From: Candidatus Gastranaerophilales bacterium
GTDB taxonomy: Bacteria; Cyanobacteriota; Vampirovibrionia; Gastranaerophilales; Gastranaerophilaceae
Assembly: GCA_944324225.1 (NCBI GenBank)
Contig: CALUVL010000003.1
Location: 1-64,000, forward strand
Direction of reading: 5' to 3'
Length of the DNA: 64,000 nt
Each line of letters opens with the position of its first letter. Within the stretch, counting starts at the first letter, position 1. Below are positions 2,780 to 32,786 of the stretch, piece after piece. Both the position numbers and the translations under genes were made by a program. The notes beneath the pieces are model-generated. The model worked only from the letters and a program-made list of their open reading frames with translations. It had not been told where the DNA came from and made no database searches.

Positions 2780-3424
2780 TTACCAGGGATAATCTTTCGG
2801 AAATTCCCAGCCGTTTTTGTATAAGAGTGTTGAACAGGTAAAATATGCGTTGCCTCCCGGATTTTCGGAAGTGCAGCGCTGTTTGAGGTAGTCATTTTCT
2901 CTGTCTAAGTATGGCGGTTCAAGCATTCCGGTATTTTCGTTAACCACAAACCAGAAAATATTTCTTGAGCCCTTAATCTTTCCGTAATCCCAGAAATCGT
3001 CTTTTTTAACAAGCGATTTGGCAAGATATACGCAACTCAGTTTGTCGCCTTCCCAGGAGCCGTTTATTCTTTTAGTGCATACAAACTGCGAGCCGTCTTC
3101 AAGAGTTACGGCTACTCCGTCGGTAAAACTTCCGGATATTTGAACATTAGTCTGTATGTTAATGGTTTTAAAATGTTTTATCAGAAAATTTCTGCATAAA
3201 AATTCCGTATCAGTATAAATCCAGTCTTTATATTCCCCATTTTCGACTTTGGCAAGCATCATTGCCTGATTAAAAATGGTGTAGAATTTTTGTACTTTAA
3301 CGGCAGTTGTTTTTTTCTGGTAATGCCCCATAAGCCTGGGAAATGTCATAGCGGCAACAACCCCGATTAGACCGAGTGTAATTAACACTTCAGCCATTGT
3401 AAATGCAATATAATTCTTTTTCAT
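2780..3424 (-). CDS. Pseudopilin-like protein, DYPW tail (A)
   Basis: A 214-aa protein with a type IV prepilin/pseudopilin N-terminus: short basic leader, cleavage context IA-FTMAEVLITLG, Glu at +5, then one hydrophobic helix (residues 8-30). The -1 residue is Ala instead of the usual Gly. The exported body holds several Cys and ends in GWEFPKDYPW. The second pseudopilin at 4851-5522 has almost the same ending. It is divergent from the HTH gene at 3510. No secretion ATPase or prepilin peptidase lies nearby. The fibre or secretion system it belongs to is unknown. Confidence 0.88.
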   Translation of the reverse strand: MKKNYIAFTMAEVLITLGLIGVVAAMTFPRLMGHYQKKTTAVKVQKFYTIFNQAMMLAKVENGEYKDWIYTDTEFLCRNFLIKHFKTINIQTNVQISGSFTDGVAVTLEDGSQFVCTKRINGSWEGDKLSCVYLAKSLVKKDDFWDYGKIKGSRNIFWFVVNENTGMLEPPYLDRENDYLKQRCTSENPGGNAYFTCSTLLYKNGWEFPKDYPW

Positions 3425-4850: not shown

Positions 4851-5522
4851 TTACCACGGATAATCATCTTTTATTTCCCAGCCGTCTCTTATTATTTTTT
4901 CAGCACAACACTGCCCGGATCCTGTTTTACTGCAACTATTATTGAGTTCCGCATCTGTATAACTATTACATAGTCCTATAACTTTGTTATCATGTAATTG
5001 CAGAATAAAAACGTCTTTTCCTACAAAATTAGGTTTTCGAGGACCATTAAGATCTATATAAAATTTCTGCTCGTTACCCCAGTATTGTCCACTAGCCTCA
5101 TTCCACGAAAAAAGAACAAATGCAATTAAAGTCCCATCCATTAATATGATAGTGTAACGATTATTGCCAACAAGTGATAGTGTGTCTCCGTTATATTGTT
5201 CTGCTTGTACATCATACCCGCAATCTCCGTCTTTACTGCATTCCTGCAAAGATTTGAAATATGGAAGCCAATAAAGCTGAACATACTTTTTTACTGATTC
5301 TGTATTTATTGTCAGTGACCCGTCAACCCATGTGTCTGAGGGGCCGTTTTTATATACTGACTGCATATATGCTTGCGAAAGTGTGGTGTAAACCTTTTTT
5401 AACTGTACAACAGTCTGTTTTTTCTGGTAATTTTTTATAACTCCTGGCATAGTCATTGCGGCTACAATTCCTATGACTCCAATTGTTATAAGTACCTCTG
5501 CCATTGTGAATGCTTTTTTCAT
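4851..5522 (-). CDS. Pseudopilin-like protein, DYPW tail (B)
   Basis: A 223-aa protein beginning MKKAFTMAEVLITIG, a classic prepilin-type cleavage and methylation signature with Ala at -1, Glu at +5 and a following hydrophobic helix. The body carries paired Cys residues (CSKDGDCGYD, CSKTGSGQCC) likely forming disulfides after export. The C-terminus DGWEIKDDYPW matches the tail of the protein at 2780-3424. It is divergent from the HTH gene at 5666 across an AT-rich gap containing a near-perfect palindrome. Probable minor pilin or pseudopilin; partner machinery is not in the window. Confidence 0.88.
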   Translation of the reverse strand: MKKAFTMAEVLITIGVIGIVAAMTMPGVIKNYQKKQTVVQLKKVYTTLSQAYMQSVYKNGPSDTWVDGSLTINTESVKKYVQLYWLPYFKSLQECSKDGDCGYDVQAEQYNGDTLSLVGNNRYTIILMDGTLIAFVLFSWNEASGQYWGNEQKFYIDLNGPRKPNFVGKDVFILQLHDNKVIGLCNSYTDAELNNSCSKTGSGQCCAEKIIRDGWEIKDDYPW

Positions 5523-22737: not shown

Positions 22738-23367
22738 TTACACACAATACAAATAAGTAAAAAGTTCATTGAAAGTATCAGCCATAGCACCTTTGTCAGG
22801 GAACAGTTTAGCTGAATTCAATTTGTTGAATTTTTCAGCCAGCTTGTCGCAATCGGATGTCAGCTTCCCTTCAATATTAATTCTATCCCTCAAAGATCTG
22901 ATGAGTTTTTCTCCGTAAACCTGTCTTTGTTCCGTATTCGCGTCACCTAAAAATGATTCGATGAAAGATTCGTTATATTCTCTGCCCGCTGTTTCATTCC
23001 AGAGGTTTACGACTTCGTAGATATTTTCTAAATCAATTTTTTGCAACGCTTCTTCAAAAAGTTTGTTATCAGTTCCGAGCCCGTCAATTGCTTTATACAT
23101 ATCTGAAACAATTTCGTGTGATTCTTTTTTAACCCGTTCAATGCGTTGCTGTTCTTCTTTGGAAAAATACACAGTGTCGGATTTTGCACGCTCTAAATAG
23201 ATTGTATCCGTTTTTATTACTGTTTTGTCGATTGCCCATCCTTCACTAAAAATTATTGGTTCACTAACTGTGTCAACCGGTATTGAATGTTTGTCTCCGG
23301 CCTGTTTTGCGCCGCCTGTTTTGGCCTGTGATGCATAAATAGTGTTTGTAACTGCTAAATTTCCCAT
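22738..23367 (-). CDS. Hypothetical protein with one annexin-like repeat
   Basis: A 209-aa protein with no signal peptide. Residues about 90-160 match the annexin repeat pattern: MYKAIDGLGTDNKLFEEAL, then IYEVVNLWNETAGREY. The GLGTD loop is the type II calcium-binding motif of annexins. Only one repeat is evident, whereas eukaryotic annexins have four. The N-terminal 85 residues are low in hydrophobicity and mention no known domain. It is monocistronic with a strong GGAGGAAAAAAT ribosome binding site. Possible membrane- or calcium-binding function is inference. Confidence 0.72.
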   Translation of the reverse strand: MGNLAVTNTIYASQAKTGGAKQAGDKHSIPVDTVSEPIIFSEGWAIDKTVIKTDTIYLERAKSDTVYFSKEEQQRIERVKKESHEIVSDMYKAIDGLGTDNKLFEEALQKIDLENIYEVVNLWNETAGREYNESFIESFLGDANTEQRQVYGEKLIRSLRDRINIEGKLTSDCDKLAEKFNKLNSAKLFPDKGAMADTFNELFTYLYCV

Positions 23368-25739: not shown

Positions 25740-25768
25740 TTGAATTATTTTGAATAAAATGTTATAAT
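25740..25768 (+). promoter_or_regulatory. Promoter of the glycine-rich pseudopilin pair
   Basis: TTGAAT, a 17-bp spacer, then TATAAT, about 36 bp before the ATG at 25805. GAGGA supplies the ribosome binding site. Confidence 0.65.
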
Positions 25769-25804: not shown

Positions 25805-26884
25805 ATGCGGCAAGGCGCTTCAACTGGAAGTTTTAAGCTTGGGAGTCTAATATCAATACGTGAAGCCAGACTGGGTGGTTTTTCTATGGCAGAAATGCTA
25901 GTAGTAATGCTGATAATGTCTTTTATTGTAATTGGCATTCCTGCAATACATTTTAAAAAGACGGAATTAAAGACCAAACGGAGTTCTCACGGGCGATATG
26001 AATGTTATTATGATGGCAGTACTTTGAAGGAATACTATATAAATGAAAAGGGCGTCGAAACAGGTCCTTCGGCAGTAACAGAGTGCAAGTTTTCACCGCC
26101 GAAGAATGCAATATATTTTCTTATTCACGCAGTTGGCGGCGGAGGAGGTGCAGCCAATGTTGCAGGTTCTATAATAGTAAACAACAAAACAGAGAGTTCA
26201 TCTTTCAGGACTCCGAATGATTTTCCGGAATGGCTCAGAGATGTTCAAGGGCAGGGAGAATTACCTGAGGTTTCATCTAGTCCGCCGGTATATAATGCAA
26301 CAAGGAGCGGATCTTATGCGACTGTTACTTACGGTAAATCCGGCGGTGCCGGCAAAACTGTGTCGATATTTTTCCCTAGATTGACAGGTGTTGAGATAAT
26401 AATGGTTCCGGGTAAAGGCGGGGCAAAAGGTCAGCCCGGTGAAAAAACAAACGTAAAGTTTAAACTCAGCGATGGCAGTATTGTAAATATAATAGAAGCT
26501 GAAGGCGGAACAGCAGGTACAGGATCTGGAGCATTCCCGTTGTGGCTTGATGGTGCGGGTGCAATGTGTTCCGTGAAGGAGCTGGTAGACAGAAAGTTTA
26601 ATCAGGCTGATTTTGTAACAAATATAGAAATGGATGAAGATACGGAGATGACAACACAATTAACAGCCGACTCGGTTCTTGCCGGCAGTGGAGGTGCAGG
26701 AGCCTATGGCGTTTATACCGGTACAGGGAATGTCACATACACAGTTAACGGAACGGATGTAAGTGCTTATGTAAGAAAAACGACCTGTGATTCTCCAACG
26801 CTTTGTGATAATGATGTAGCTCCCAGCGGCGGATCTTGTCCGGCACAGGCAGGCAGAAATGGTGCGGTGGTAATATTATGGTAA
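25805..26884 (+). CDS. Glycine-rich pseudopilin-like protein 1
   Basis: A 359-aa protein. A long 25-residue leader precedes the prepilin cleavage site G-FSMAEMLVV with Glu at +5 and a hydrophobic helix. Just after it is a motif shared with the next two pseudopilins: HGRYECYYDG, then CKFSPPKNAIYFLIHAVGGGGG. The body is glycine-rich (GKGGAKGQPGE, AGSGGAGAYG) and the protein ends GAVVILW. The Gly-rich body plus VVI-W ending resembles phage tail-tip glycine-rich domains. Its stop overlaps the next start (ATGGTAA), so the two are co-translated. Confidence 0.82.
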   Translation: MRQGASTGSFKLGSLISIREARLGGFSMAEMLVVMLIMSFIVIGIPAIHFKKTELKTKRSSHGRYECYYDGSTLKEYYINEKGVETGPSAVTECKFSPPKNAIYFLIHAVGGGGGAANVAGSIIVNNKTESSSFRTPNDFPEWLRDVQGQGELPEVSSSPPVYNATRSGSYATVTYGKSGGAGKTVSIFFPRLTGVEIIMVPGKGGAKGQPGEKTNVKFKLSDGSIVNIIEAEGGTAGTGSGAFPLWLDGAGAMCSVKELVDRKFNQADFVTNIEMDEDTEMTTQLTADSVLAGSGGAGAYGVYTGTGNVTYTVNGTDVSAYVRKTTCDSPTLCDNDVAPSGGSCPAQAGRNGAVVILW

Positions 26885-27774
26885 AAAACGGAAATAAATC
26901 AGGGTTTTCATTATTTGAAGCGTGCGTTGTAATGTTGATAGTCGGGATATTTACGGCATTATGTGCAAATTCATATTCTAAACGCCATGTGACCTATCAG
27001 GAATCCGACGGCCACGGTCGTTACGAATGTTATCGCAATTCTGCTGGAACACTAATGCAGCGTTATGTAGAAAATAATAACTCACGTAATGTGACAGGGT
27101 CAATCTGCGTATTCAGACCTCCAAGATATGCTAAATATATTCTTTTAAATGCGGTTGGCGGAGGGTCAACAACCGGTGCTGGAGTTTTCCAGAGTATGTT
27201 TTACAGCTCGGTTGATGAACCTTTAACGGTGGAACCTGGTACTGTTGGAAATGCAACTACTATAAAGGAAGGTAGTAATACTTTACTGACAGCAGAGGCA
27301 GGAGGAGGAAGTTTAATAACAACTAATAGCACCATGTCTACAGTCAAAGATTGTCAATTCATAGATAATAAATATTCTTGTTCTGGTACCCCTGTCTGTA
27401 TGCAGGACGGAGTTAATTTGGCAGTATCATACTGTAGTTCCGCAAACGAGTTTGTGACGGATAGTATTCCTCTGGCATACATAAAGACATACAGTCAGTC
27501 ACAGACCAGTGACAGTGTTGTATATAAGGATTTGTCAGATATGACAAAAAAGGGTGTTGACTATAAAACTGCAAGCGAAAAGGCCGGTGACCCAGATCTT
27601 GAAGAAAAGACAAACTATGAAATTTTTTATACAATAAATGTAAAATTTGATACTACGCTGACAAGCGTATCACAAATGGAGAGTTATCTGGAGTCATTGA
27701 GTATTGACGACGGTATAGCGTCGGTTCAGCCGGGGCGCCCTAACAAGCCGGGAGGAGTTATAATTCTCTGGTAA
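26878..27774 (+). CDS. Glycine-rich-family pseudopilin-like protein 2
   Basis: A 298-aa protein starting MVKNGNKSGFSLFEACVV: leader, Gly at -1, Phe at +1, Glu at +5, hydrophobic helix. The start is the ATG overlapping the previous stop; a longer frame upstream is inside that gene. It repeats the trio motifs HGRYECYRNS, CVFRPPRYAKYILLNAVGGG and ends PGGVIILW, but has few glycine repeats in the body and instead several Cys (CQFIDNKYSC, PVCMQDG). Probably a partner of protein 1. Confidence 0.8.
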   Translation: MVKNGNKSGFSLFEACVVMLIVGIFTALCANSYSKRHVTYQESDGHGRYECYRNSAGTLMQRYVENNNSRNVTGSICVFRPPRYAKYILLNAVGGGSTTGAGVFQSMFYSSVDEPLTVEPGTVGNATTIKEGSNTLLTAEAGGGSLITTNSTMSTVKDCQFIDNKYSCSGTPVCMQDGVNLAVSYCSSANEFVTDSIPLAYIKTYSQSQTSDSVVYKDLSDMTKKGVDYKTASEKAGDPDLEEKTNYEIFYTINVKFDTTLTSVSQMESYLESLSIDDGIASVQPGRPNKPGGVIILW

Positions 27775-27779
27775 TACTG

Positions 27780-27808
27780 TTGCATATTTCTTACTGCAAT
27801 GATATAAT
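27780..27808 (+). promoter_or_regulatory. Promoter and long leader of the large pseudopilin gene
   Basis: TTGCAT, a 17-bp spacer and TATAAT. The predicted transcript has a leader of about 215 nt before the chosen ATG at 28032. The leader contains a hairpin near 27952-27981 (AGGATcTTCC/GGAAaTCCT) close to the ribosome binding region. No known riboswitch is recognised. Confidence 0.6.
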
Positions 27809-28031
27809 TGAGAACAAATTTATAAATATCTGGAGGTATCAGCCAAAGGAACAACTCAAAAACATATTTCATCCTGAGTCGTACAAATCCGGGTGAAAGG
27901 TAGAAGTCGAATCAGTTTAAAGCGAATTCAAAAGTTAAAGAATCTACCAAAAAGGATCTTCCATAAATAGAAAGGAAATCCTCAGAAGTACACAAAAAAT
28001 GATTAATATGAACAATAGAGGTGATAAAAGT

Positions 28032-30770
28032 ATGGACAATAAGAGATCTAGGATATTTTATGGATTTTCAATGGTAGAAATGATGCTGTTGTTGGTAATC
28101 GTGTCATTGATGCTGGCATCCGGCGTGGCGGTAATCTCTAAGAAACACGTAAAAGTTCCACATCTTGCAGTTCACGGAGCATATATGTGTTATGTGAAAA
28201 ATGGAAACCTTCATGAGGAAAAATATCTAGGTACAGGCTTGAGTAACAAAATACTGGATCAGGATACCGCAAAGTGTGTATTTACTCCTCCTGCAAGAGC
28301 GTCTTATTTTCATATTCAGGCCACAGGCGGAGGTGGTGGCGGCGGTGCTGCAGGTTATGAAGGCGGAAATATTCTAACTTATCAATCAGCAACGGAAGTT
28401 ATTACACCTTTTGGTATAAAGAAGGCACTTTTGGATTTGAAGGGAATTTCCGAAAATGAACTTAAAACCAATGGCGGAAAACTCTGGGCTTATGCAAACG
28501 GAACCGGTAAATTGGGCGATGGCGGCAAAGGCGGTGATTTGTATTATATCCATCAGGAATGCTCAAATGATTGTCTATACTATAGAAAATGGAAATACAA
28601 CGGCACCGACGAAAAAGAATGTGAGGCTCATTATTCTAATGCTACCATAACTGAAATAACACGTAAATACAGTTATCTTAGTTCTGTACCTTGTTCTGGA
28701 ACGAGTTGTGATCATTGTACTACCCCCGACCCACTGGATCCGACAAAATGTATAAGCGGTTATAATGATGTAACCAATTATGTAACATGTACTGATGAAT
28801 ATGGTATTCCGGACCCTGCTACCTGCTCAGCTGTTACAGAGGATAAATCTGTTCAATGCGAAAATATAAAAGCAAAAAATTTGGCTCCCGATGCCCCATA
28901 CAGAGTCGAACTGAGTCCCGCTACACTGTCCGTAGGCAACGACTTAAAAGAACGTATAGTTAAGAGAGACAAAGAGGTAAATCATACTATATGCAACTAT
29001 GGAAATACAAGCCTATACAGCAGTGGCACCTCGACTGAAGATGGAATATTCGGATCATTTTCAACGGCAGATAGTACTGGTGTTGATTGCAATACAAAAG
29101 CTCTAAGAGAAGCCTTTGGCGAGCAGATGTATAAAATCAGTGACTCAGAAACTTCAATGCAAGAGACTGTTGATATGGGTGCCTGTGAAGCTTATTACGA
29201 GGCATTGGGTGGGGTTTGCACTAAAGATTACAAATTTCCTTATTATCTTTTGACAGAAGACAATGGAGGGCTGGGTGCATTTGGCGAATCATACAAAAAC
29301 GTATATAATGATTCGATTGGTGGAAACGTCACAGGAGATACAAGTTGTACATATACAAATCCTGTCACCGGTATCACTGTTGATGATAGTACCCAAGTTC
29401 TTCAGACCGGTTGTACAATAACGTCTTATAGTACTCATGATAATTTGGGTTGTGCCTCTTACGATCATAGCAGTTCTTATACTTATGTAGGAGTGGTGTC
29501 GCATAATACAAGGACTCAATCGGTAATAACGAGTTATTCATGTCCTTATAAAAGTACACCGTCAAGCGATGAAAAATGTTTATATAGTTACGCTGATATA
29601 GCAACAATTGATCCTGATGACGAAATTCATTGTGCTTATATTCCTCAGGTTGTAGCCGGAGGAGCCAATGGGGTAGGAAAATTCTGTGCCCTAAATGATG
29701 TTCAGGCCGGATTAGAGATAAATTATACTGGTATTTCTACTATAATTCCAGGTGTCAATGGGTCCGACTTGAAGCTTTTCACGCAGGAATACGCTCCTCT
29801 ATATACAAAATCTGATTGGGTACACACTATTGATTATTCAGGTACAGCAGAAGGTGGTGCACCGTCTCAAGGTTTTGCAGAAATTAAACTTGGTGGCAAC
29901 AGTTGTAAAATTCATGCAGATGTTCCAGGAGCAGGTGCCGGGGCGGAGAAGGACCCAGGAGAAAATGTTACGCCGGGTGCCGCTGCACCTGCAGGTGGTC
30001 CAGGTCAGCTTGTAGGCTCTATTGACGGCTCTGGATACACCCAAGACATGAGCCGTGATTGCGGACACAATGAGCATCACGTTGGTTACTGTCTGAAAGA
30101 TCGTCACAACAATGTTAGAGAAAATGGTAAATATACATACCAATACACATGGCAGACCAATTATCTCCAGTATGGAGAAGGCGGTAAAGCCGGTGAATAC
30201 CGTGTAAAAATTATCAGAGCTTTCAATGATAAAAATATAGAAATTACTCTTGGCAGAGGCGGTGCAGGCGGTACAGGTGCAACGGACTGTGATGGTAAGG
30301 ATGGCACTGATACAATTGTCGGGGATATTTTGACCGCAAAAGGCGGCAAAGGCGGCAAAGGCTGTATCCCGACTGCAGCCGAGCAGATGCCTTACTGGTA
30401 TTCAGGCGGTACCTTTAAAGCTACGCAGCCTGGAGGAAGCGGTGAACTTGCTACTGTAACAAACTATAAAACAAATATAATCAACCTTGTTTTGCCGGTA
30501 GATAAAACAACTCTTGGTGACTGGGTTGCAAGTTCCGGTGCTGGCGGCAACGGCGGTGGTTCTACAAACGACTGTTGGGCAAGCGAGTGGGTACGCCATT
30601 TTGAAGGTAAACAGATGGAAGAGCTAGGCGGAAAACTTGATACCGCACAGTTAGCTAATTGCCGTAATCAATCATACAGCACTGGTGATCCTCCTAAAAT
30701 GGGACCTGGTTCATATACAAGTGAGGCCGGTGAGGATGGTTTAAATGGCGTTGTGCTCATCAAATGGTAA
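28032..30770 (+). CDS. Large glycine-rich pseudopilin-like protein 3
   Basis: A 912-aa protein. The start at 28032 follows GAGGTGA by 7 bp; ATG at 27999 lacks this. The prepilin site is YG-FSMVEMMLLLV. Shared motifs follow: HGAYMCYVKNG, CVFTPPARASYFHIQA and GGGGGGG. The middle is unusually Cys-, Thr- and Ser-rich (CSGTSCDHCTTPDPLDPTKC). The C-terminal third has blocks LGRGGAGGTGATDCDGKDG, AKGGKGGKGC and GAGGNGGGS, ending LNGVVLIKW. This is the pattern of glycine-rich phage tail fibre domains. It is several times longer than ordinary pilins and is likely a surface-exposed adhesin or fibre tip. Confidence 0.82.
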   Translation: MDNKRSRIFYGFSMVEMMLLLVIVSLMLASGVAVISKKHVKVPHLAVHGAYMCYVKNGNLHEEKYLGTGLSNKILDQDTAKCVFTPPARASYFHIQATGGGGGGGAAGYEGGNILTYQSATEVITPFGIKKALLDLKGISENELKTNGGKLWAYANGTGKLGDGGKGGDLYYIHQECSNDCLYYRKWKYNGTDEKECEAHYSNATITEITRKYSYLSSVPCSGTSCDHCTTPDPLDPTKCISGYNDVTNYVTCTDEYGIPDPATCSAVTEDKSVQCENIKAKNLAPDAPYRVELSPATLSVGNDLKERIVKRDKEVNHTICNYGNTSLYSSGTSTEDGIFGSFSTADSTGVDCNTKALREAFGEQMYKISDSETSMQETVDMGACEAYYEALGGVCTKDYKFPYYLLTEDNGGLGAFGESYKNVYNDSIGGNVTGDTSCTYTNPVTGITVDDSTQVLQTGCTITSYSTHDNLGCASYDHSSSYTYVGVVSHNTRTQSVITSYSCPYKSTPSSDEKCLYSYADIATIDPDDEIHCAYIPQVVAGGANGVGKFCALNDVQAGLEINYTGISTIIPGVNGSDLKLFTQEYAPLYTKSDWVHTIDYSGTAEGGAPSQGFAEIKLGGNSCKIHADVPGAGAGAEKDPGENVTPGAAAPAGGPGQLVGSIDGSGYTQDMSRDCGHNEHHVGYCLKDRHNNVRENGKYTYQYTWQTNYLQYGEGGKAGEYRVKIIRAFNDKNIEITLGRGGAGGTGATDCDGKDGTDTIVGDILTAKGGKGGKGCIPTAAEQMPYWYSGGTFKATQPGGSGELATVTNYKTNIINLVLPVDKTTLGDWVASSGAGGNGGGSTNDCWASEWVRHFEGKQMEELGGKLDTAQLANCRNQSYSTGDPPKMGPGSYTSEAGEDGLNGVVLIKW

Positions 30771-31124: not shown

Positions 31125-31988
31125 TTAGTTATAATCTTCAATTTTTACATAGCATGGAGATATTTTTGAATTGTCGTCTGTGCAGTTTTCGCCGGTATTA
31201 ACTGCGTTTGCGGTCGGATAATTCACGTAGAATGGACTGTTTACCGGAAAATCTCTCCTAAAATCCAATGACTTAGGTTCTGTTATAGATTTGCTGGAAC
31301 CCCAGGCATCATTTTTAGCCCAGTAGTAAGTGCCGGGATTTGAATGATTGCCTTGCGGACGATTTTCGTCTATAGGCGGATAAATAGCTGTTGCCTGCAT
31401 ATATCTTGTGTCTATTTCCGGAGGACCTATAGGAATTATAACCGAAGCATCCGTAACTACAAACGCTACTATATCAACCAATTTGCTTTCTTCGCTTTTC
31501 CAGGGGGTACCGATTGCCTCAGGACGCTGGGCAAGGTTTGGAGCTCTGTTTCCGTTGATGTCCACAAATACTACATAATATTGCATTGAAAATTGACTAC
31601 CATTAATGGTTTCTGTGTGTGTGTACGGGGCTCCGCCATTTGAACCTATCCAGAGATACATTCCGTTGCTCGCAATTATTTTTATATTTGCTTCAGGAAA
31701 AGAACTTGCTTCTCGTGCTAAATCTCCGGCATTACAATTGTTATCAGGAGAGTTTATGTATTCTAAAAGCATATTACAAAAATCTATTGAGTTTTGCGGA
31801 AACTCACTTCTGGTCATCATCGAGTTGTAAACAGCATTCTCCAGAGAATGGTATATCCTTACATAGAGCCATTTGAAAGTTTTGTCATATGGCTTTATTG
31901 TAACCATAGCAAAAATCGCCAGAATGCCTATAATCAACATACAAATCATCATTTCTGCCAGCGTAACTGCTTTAAACTTCCTAAACAT
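31125..31988 (-). CDS. Pseudopilin-like protein
   Basis: A 287-aa protein with N-terminus MFRKFKAVTLAEMMICMLI: basic leader, Ala at -1, Val at +1 (less usual than Phe), Glu at +5, hydrophobic helix to about residue 30. The exported body is rich in Asn, Pro and Tyr and has two likely Cys pairs (CNMLLEYINSPDNNC and CTDDNSKISPC). It lacks the GGGG/VVI-W pattern of the neighbouring trio and faces them tail to tail. Probable minor pilin or pseudopilin. Confidence 0.85.
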   Translation of the reverse strand: MFRKFKAVTLAEMMICMLIIGILAIFAMVTIKPYDKTFKWLYVRIYHSLENAVYNSMMTRSEFPQNSIDFCNMLLEYINSPDNNCNAGDLAREASSFPEANIKIIASNGMYLWIGSNGGAPYTHTETINGSQFSMQYYVVFVDINGNRAPNLAQRPEAIGTPWKSEESKLVDIVAFVVTDASVIIPIGPPEIDTRYMQATAIYPPIDENRPQGNHSNPGTYYWAKNDAWGSSKSITEPKSLDFRRDFPVNSPFYVNYPTANAVNTGENCTDDNSKISPCYVKIEDYN

Positions 31989-32177
31989 ATTCTCCGCTCC
32001 AAGATTAATTTATATAATAATTATAACATATTTATAAGGCATAGTCAAGGTAAAACCTGCTGCGCCTGCTTTAAAAAACAAACTATACGGAGGATTTTTT
32101 GTAAATTAACTTTCGTATAATGATATTATAGAATAAAATAGTGGCATAATATTTATATACAAAAAGAGGGAAGTAAT

Positions 32178-32786
32178 ATGAATAATAAAAAAAGAGCGTT
32201 TACGTTGGGAGAAGTCCTTGTTACTTTAATGATTGTCGGTGTCATTGCCGCATTGATTATTCCGATTATAAAAAATGCACAGCCGGATAAACAAAAGTTG
32301 ATGTTTAAAAAAGCTTACACTAACGTTGAAAGAATTGTAACAGAAATGGTTAATGATGACGATCTCTATCCTGAAGTAGGAGACTATGTCGGATTGGATA
32401 ATACAACAGATGTAAAGGTTAATGATACAACATACACCGGTAATACAAAATTCTGCAATCTTTTTGCTATGAAGGTAAATATTATCGATGATGGAGCTAT
32501 TCATTGCCCGGCTACTCCCGGCGGTGGCGGTACTTACAATACGCCAAGTTTTGTAACAGCCGATAGTGTGGCTTATTACCTGCCTTCTACAAATTTTGCC
32601 GCAGATGCTACTATTACTGTTGATACAAACGGTGACAAAGACCCGAATTGTTTCTATAATGCTACAAGCTGCAAAAAACCTGATATGTTTGAAATTATAG
32701 TCGGTGCTGATGGAAAAGTCAGTGTGGATGGAGACTTGGAGAAGGAATATTTGAAAGATACTTCTGTTATAAGAACACAAAAATAA
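32178..32786 (+). CDS. Pseudopilin-like protein
   Basis: A 202-aa protein with prepilin start MNNKKRAFTLGEVLVTLMI: Ala at -1, Phe at +1, Glu at +5. AGGGAAG precedes the ATG. The body contains a Pro/Gly turn (PATPGGGGTYN), acidic stretches and paired Cys (CFYNATSCKKP). It is divergent from the pseudopilin at 31125-31988, the two starts being 190 bp apart. Likely another minor pilin of the same or a related system. Confidence 0.86.
   Translation: MNNKKRAFTLGEVLVTLMIVGVIAALIIPIIKNAQPDKQKLMFKKAYTNVERIVTEMVNDDDLYPEVGDYVGLDNTTDVKVNDTTYTGNTKFCNLFAMKVNIIDDGAIHCPATPGGGGTYNTPSFVTADSVAYYLPSTNFAADATITVDTNGDKDPNCFYNATSCKKPDMFEIIVGADGKVSVDGDLEKEYLKDTSVIRTQK

Follow-up and report, generated by a model that had tools for sequence, protein, structure and literature searches.

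Tandem prepilin-type proteins with predicted phage-tail-tip-like glycine-rich heads in a Candidatus Gastranaerophilales bacterium

Introduction

In the modular minor pilins PilB and PilC of S. sanguinis the prepilin leader and first helix (alpha1) bear a large non-pilin effector domain, attached behind a small pilin head (PMC8179133, PMC9934059). Together these pilins form an adhesive complex that has been modelled at the pilus tip (PMC9934059, PMC8179133). Three minor pilins in tandem, one of them much larger than the others, are known from GspI-GspJ-GspK, the tip complex of type II secretion, whose heads all have the pilin fold, with a helical insert in GspK. The pilus tip adhesin PilC/PilY1 is a non-pilin beta-propeller. 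Here we describe a locus of three tandem prepilin-type genes, named A, B and C in the following, in Candidatus Gastranaerophilales bacterium (assembly GCA_944324225.1, contig CALUVL010000003.1). The stretch analysed, called the window, comprises positions 1–64,000 of this contig.

The relevant heads are known from phages and animals. The tail fibre gp24 of cyanophage Pam3 (PDB 7ypx; PMC9608196) is a homotrimer made from one gene, with a helix that docks to the baseplate and a variable distal tip. The S16/PP01 adhesin gp38 (PDB 6F45; PMC12892980) sits on gp37 and displays hypervariable receptor-binding loops on a poly-glycine II lattice, with a beta-helix in place of the tumour necrosis factor (TNF)-like part. 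In both proteins the glycine loops vary at their distal ends, which bind the receptor, and receptor specificity is attributed to these loops or proposed to reside in them (PMC12892980, PMC9608196). A glycine-rich (TG) domain is also found in the animal receptor kinases ALK and LTK (7nx3, 7lrz, 7nx1), where it binds a cytokine. That Gastranaerophilales possess type IV pilus genes has been described before (PMC5877343). In the open-access literature we found no earlier report of pilins with glycine-rich tail-fibre domains or of Gastranaerophilales pilus adhesins, and the text of PMC8179133, its dataset aside, does not mention glycine-rich modules.

Results

Three tandem pilins share one architecture

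The genes and segments under study are, in window coordinates:

25805..26884, plus strand: pilin A, 359 aa; leader, alpha1, predicted TNF-like/glycine-rich head, C-terminal GAVVILW
26878..27774, plus strand: pilin B, 298 aa (291–362 aa in relatives), ending in GGVIILW
28032..30770, plus strand: pilin C, 912 aa (544–1400 aa in relatives); Gly_rich_2 above the Pfam cut-off; ending in GVVLIKW
28347..30131, plus strand: Cys-rich, hypervariable insert of C, spanning roughly residues 106–700 of 912, with 24 of the 30 Cys
30132..30767, plus strand: segment of C located 3' of the insert

All three proteins start with a prepilin leader and a hydrophobic helix of about 30 residues, followed by HGxYxCY, CxFxPP and a GGG block, and end in GxxVxIxW directly before the stop codon. 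In A the leader reads ...ARLGG|FSMAE and the motifs are HGRYECYY, CKFSPPKNA and VGGGGG; in B they are MVKNGNKSG|FSLFE, HGRYECY, CVFRPPRYA and VGGG; in C MDNKRSRIFYG|FSMVE, HGAYMCY, CVFTPPARA and GGGGGGG, with further glycine-rich blocks GAGGTGA and KGGKGGKG. The leaders are of class III, with a small residue (Gly) at position -1, Phe1, Glu5 and a hydrophobic alpha1, and the N_methyl profile scored above its cut-off at A, together with A's neighbours in frame. An original prediction made from the letters of the window had described three pseudopilin-like genes with these motifs at 25805–30770 and glycine-rich blocks in the 912-aa member; every one of them was found in place. B starts 7 nt inside A, so that the two genes overlap. 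C starts either at ATG 28032, with AGGTG in front (912 aa), or at ATG 27999 (923 aa).

The heads of A and C are predicted to have a phage tail-tip fold

In C the Pfam family PF21722 (Gly_rich_2) matches with an E-value of 2.5e-9 and 37.9 bits against a gathering cut-off of 24.3, and the match reaches profile position 225 of 226, which is the terminal Trp. Among relatives, 15 of the 32 C proteins and 9 of the 28 A proteins match Gly_rich_2, and more divergent pilins with this architecture score up to 2.2e-17 and 64.3 bits. One of these divergent pilins places the CxFxPP-GGG segment on profile positions 7–30, and further matches cover positions 4–39, which suggests that this sequence segment is the start of the Gly_rich_2 domain. 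None of the 10 shuffled or reversed controls matched the family, which rules out a chance match through glycine composition. The PHROG tail family 863 matches 18 of 32 C proteins (best 8e-15).

We built AlphaFold2 models of A and C from alignments made in this analysis. The predicted local distance difference test (pLDDT) score was 83.2 for A and 84.0 for C, with predicted template modelling (pTM) scores of 0.71 and 0.61. Compared with viral models (BFVD), A gave 64 matches below 1e-3, most of which carry glycine-rich, tail-fibre or minor-tail names, and over both models the BFVD matches were overwhelmingly "glycine-rich domain", tail-fibre and minor-tail proteins. Foldseek against the PDB alone gave no match at E<0.001 and many unrelated beta proteins; this was resolved by VIA-align. 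For A the best solved structure was the Pam3 fibre with Z 10.5 (148 residues, 3.4 Å, 22% identity), followed by the Bxb1 tail tip (Z 9.7) and ALK/LTK (7.3–8.5) and then a drop to 3.8. For C the same order was obtained: Pam3 fibre with Z 12.4 (153 residues, 2.7 Å, 26%), Bxb1 tail tip 10.9, ALK/LTK 7.1–8.7, then a drop to 3.4. The ALK/LTK alignments of the two models cover 117–154 residues including the terminal strand. A Z-score near 8 alone could reflect a common arrangement. However, the 15 best PDB entries for A and the 11 best for C all have the TNF-like/glycine-rich fold, and because a single rare fold makes up each list and is set off by a wide gap from what follows, we do not consider the match to be of that kind. 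Structures of gp38 were not among the PDB matches listed, which is no evidence either way. Two further matches were dropped: ribosomal S3 for C, the only phmmer match against PDB chains (0.22) and taken as chance, and the amyloid protein FapB for A (0.022), far under the cut-off.

A TNF-like fold with a glycine lattice is therefore well supported for A and C at the level of models, and the phage-tail-like bodies of the original prediction are borne out by them. For B we infer a head of the same fold from the N-terminal module and terminal strand that its sequence has in common with A and C. The models predict that phage tail tips, the human ALK receptor and these pilins have one and the same fold.

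Anatomy of the heads and the hypervariable insert of C

The fold alignment begins at the HGxYxC strand, at residue 59 in A and 45 in C and about 15 residues past the predicted end of alpha1, and in both models the terminal Trp falls on the residues at which the fold ends in Pam3 (274) and ALK (983). Since the alignment spans the HGxYxC strand to the Trp, HGxYxCY would open the TNF-like part, CxFxPP to GGG would lead into the first glycine run and VVIxW would close the sheet. The models of A and C contain no separate pilin beta-sheet between alpha1 and the glycine-rich domain. The fold thus starts directly after alpha1, and the pilin head appears to have been replaced by the glycine-rich domain in these predicted structures. 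As in modular pilins, a non-pilin functional domain (Gly_rich_2, with the TG fold after alpha1) is carried on a pilin N-terminus; the small globular pilin module that S. sanguinis PilB and PilC keep after alpha1 is, in contrast, absent from both models.

The insert of C comprises about 600 residues after the first glycine block and is its fastest evolving part. In comparison to the nearest relative (L070) most windows of the insert are 32–63% identical, the anchors 72–88% and the flanking genes 90–98%. The ratio of non-synonymous to synonymous substitutions (dN/dS) of C is 0.28 and 0.42 in two comparisons versus 0.02–0.08 for flanking genes, with one small gene at 0.27 at very low dS. Because the ends of glycine loops bind the receptor in gp24 and gp38, the insert, as placed by the alignment, would occupy the site at which recognition is expected.

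The three pilins are old paralogues inherited together

To survey the locus one genome per species was scanned, yielding 34 loci, almost all of them from entries labelled as Candidatus Gastranaerophilales or as gut metagenome bins. The order A-B-C was found in 29 of 34 loci (hand count); one locus is cut by a contig end, and in four C lies away from A and B or at a contig end. Divergent genera again carry the triplet (L050, L051, L055, L058, L061, L064, L095). The terminal Trp is present in all 89 aligned relatives (28/28 A, 29/29 B, 32/32 C), with an ending of the form G..[hydrophobic]xW. This recurrence across genera shows that the architecture is not due to chance, and the expectation that the three-part arrangement would be kept in Gastranaerophilales holds in many genera.

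A profile of the N-terminal module (A7) gave strong matches (E<1e-10) in about 97 of 286 genomes from about 17 genera, almost only in the family of the window (hand count). Many weaker matches are probably ordinary pilins, and in the phylum sample outside the order Gastranaerophilales only a single weak match was obtained. In profile comparison the first 100 residues of B are common to A (99.9%) and C (99.7%). In a tree of the N-terminal module, built on 93 columns only, A, B and C form three lines with parallel branching (support 88, 98 and 97, the line of C including one divergent member). This indicates an old trio of paralogues that are inherited together. Their lengths differ in variability: 353–931 aa for A in relatives, and for B and C the ranges given above, that of B being nearly constant.

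Solitary second C copies away from the A-B-C cluster were observed in L079 (same metagenome-assembled genome as L078), G135 and G156. They fit the idea of C as an exchangeable part.

Gly_rich_2 proteins are also found elsewhere. In another member of the Cyanobacteriota (G499:C1:876659-917869) a 20,437-aa open frame contains at least 7 Gly_rich_2 copies. Outside the order, both cyanobacterial frames with Gly_rich_2 that were read (L116, L118) have no prepilin leader. Two genera, g36 and g37 (G173, G174, G037), have many dispersed Gly_rich_2 proteins of 600–1000 aa per genome, and one that was read among proteins of this type (L125) has a prepilin leader. Judged from sequence, these genera may have large pilin repertoires of the Gly_rich_2 type.

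Flanking genes

Further features of the locus are:

25740..25768, plus strand: promoter-like site upstream of A, TTGAAT-17-TATAAT with extended TG, a consensus match only
31125..31988, minus strand: pilin E, 287 aa, C-terminal CYVKIEDYN; syntenic partner without a glycine-rich body
32178..32786, plus strand: pilin D, 202 aa, 53–83% identical to D of relatives; without a glycine-rich body

On the upstream side are genes assigned by sequence to a U32-type peptidase and a HAD-type phosphatase; a TolC-type efflux gene lies downstream, with E and D between C and TolC. These housekeeping flanks show conserved synteny in relatives. E and D also recur beside A-B-C, so the natural unit would be five pilins, three of them with glycine-rich heads. 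The limits 25805–30770 proposed originally place A, B and C correctly and are slightly narrow, as the prepilin-type E and D are syntenic partners too. No Rfam elements were found at the locus.

The E-D pair (31125–32786) is inverted relative to the flanks in some relatives (L078, L041, L043). We considered an invertible D-E segment, but while the orientation varies we detected no convincing inverted repeat at its flanks. Two ordinary prepilin-type genes, at 2780–3424 and 4851–5522 (minus strand), belong to the FTMAEVLIT group, whose paralogues are frequent near A-B-C loci. A hypothetical protein at 22738–23367 (minus strand) without Pfam or NCBIfam match has a dS of only 0.06 to L070 versus 0.5–1.2 for its neighbours and is missing in the examined loci of other relatives; its sequence probably reflects a recent exchange.

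Pilus machinery of the genome

The genome (1.93 Mb) contains 42 N_methyl prepilin-type open reading frames beside one secretin and one prepilin peptidase, which is of the A24 type. A single operon encodes the secretin (PilQ), one full PilB (T2SSE with an MshEN domain) and PilC (T2SSF). Both the processing peptidase and the assembly machine that a type IV pilin or pseudopilin requires are therefore present. Two additional, shorter T2SSE frames, of 382 and 362 aa, may be PilT-type retraction ATPases. No PilY1 (PF05567, beta-propeller) was detected in the genome with a threshold of E≤1, a limited test as few control genomes matched.

Discussion

We consider A, B and C likely to be minor type IV pilins whose TNF-like heads with a glycine lattice form an adhesin complex at the pilus tip, directed at gut surfaces or neighbouring cells. 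The proposed role is that of PilC/PilY1, although the protein type is different. The leader, fold, conservation, co-inheritance, divergence pattern and presence of the machine are computational results; a surface location at the tip, binding of a gut ligand and assembly into one complex, which may be an A:B:C heterotrimer, are what we infer. The A24 prepilin peptidase would cut the leaders, and the alpha1 helices would insert into the top of a filament built by the PilB-PilC-PilQ machine. The three heads would come together at the tip, the position that accommodates large heads best according to the argument of PMC8179133. There the glycine lattice would serve as a rigid scaffold, and loops from the first glycine block, above all the insert of C, would contact the receptor. 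The constant B could be an initiator or adaptor and C the variable effector.

A heterotrimer is attractive because gp24 trimerises via its helix and TNF-like part and the genes come in threes. Pam3 gp24 is the best structural match of A and C, yet it is a virion protein without prepilin leader or large insert. Only tentatively, and with the odds somewhat against it, do we extend the proposal to a lineage-wide A:B:C heterotrimeric tip in which C displays an exchangeable hypervariable receptor-binding insert, the functional equivalent of a phage tail tip on a retractable pilus.

Several observations weigh against the adhesin interpretation. A alone lies just under the Pfam cut-off for Gly_rich_2 (23.2 versus 24.3) and B has no significant match to this profile, while the pTM of the C model is only 0.61. 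Apart from one window at 1.01, dN/dS stays below 1 almost everywhere and some dS values are saturated, so that fast drift under weak constraint is possible. In two sister genomes C is apart from A and B, so that co-expression need not be obligate. Finally, a shared fold is no proof of a shared function; the ALK domain binds a protein ligand and not a surface.

Of the alternatives, one would have A, B and C cap a type II secretion-like pseudopilus for protein export, the heads handling cargo instead of host surfaces. The tandem resembles GspI-GspJ-GspK, the secretin/ATPase operon could serve pilus or secretion, and B is small and constant as expected of an initiator. However, the pilin-profile matches of A, B and C do not go beyond the leader and include no further match to GspI, GspJ or GspK, though distant kinship is possible; the two short T2SSE frames could be retraction motors, and a hypervariable insert better fits recognition of a varying partner than of the cell's own cargo. 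We regard export as unlikely. Slightly less probable still is that the variable heads serve mainly for evasion, as decoys or masked tips against pilus-binding phages or host immunity, with the lattice providing only rigidity. Such a function would agree with the concentration of fast divergence in the insert and with the extra solitary C copies in some genomes, but the same fold binds ligands in phages and ALK, and a decoy would not need three co-inherited heads. That the genes are left over from, or related to, a prophage tail-tip set for phage-like particles and not for pili is suggested by the fold and PHROG matches and is nevertheless highly improbable: every member has a prepilin leader, the flanks are syntenic housekeeping genes instead of a virion structural cluster, and a tblastn search of viral_contigs and phages gave no match. 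On these grounds a phage or prophage origin of the locus was rejected.

Overall the interpretation of the original prediction, pilin-anchored adhesive fibres or tips, is supported. Beyond it we find the predicted replacement of the pilin head, the hypervariable insert within the domain, the ancient co-inheritance of the three paralogues and the presence of the fold in ALK/LTK. Pilin-borne adhesins would thereby gain a new type of head, one that is not a pilin domain. A single fold would then occur in the tail tips of phages, in receptor kinases of animals and at the pilus tips of bacteria, in all of which it is used or likely used for specific recognition, and the triplet rule leads to a simple structural prediction, the heterotrimer. 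A, B and C are probably the fast-evolving sticky tips of Gastranaerophilales pili, and they provide a concrete candidate for the attachment of these common but hardly studied gut bacteria.

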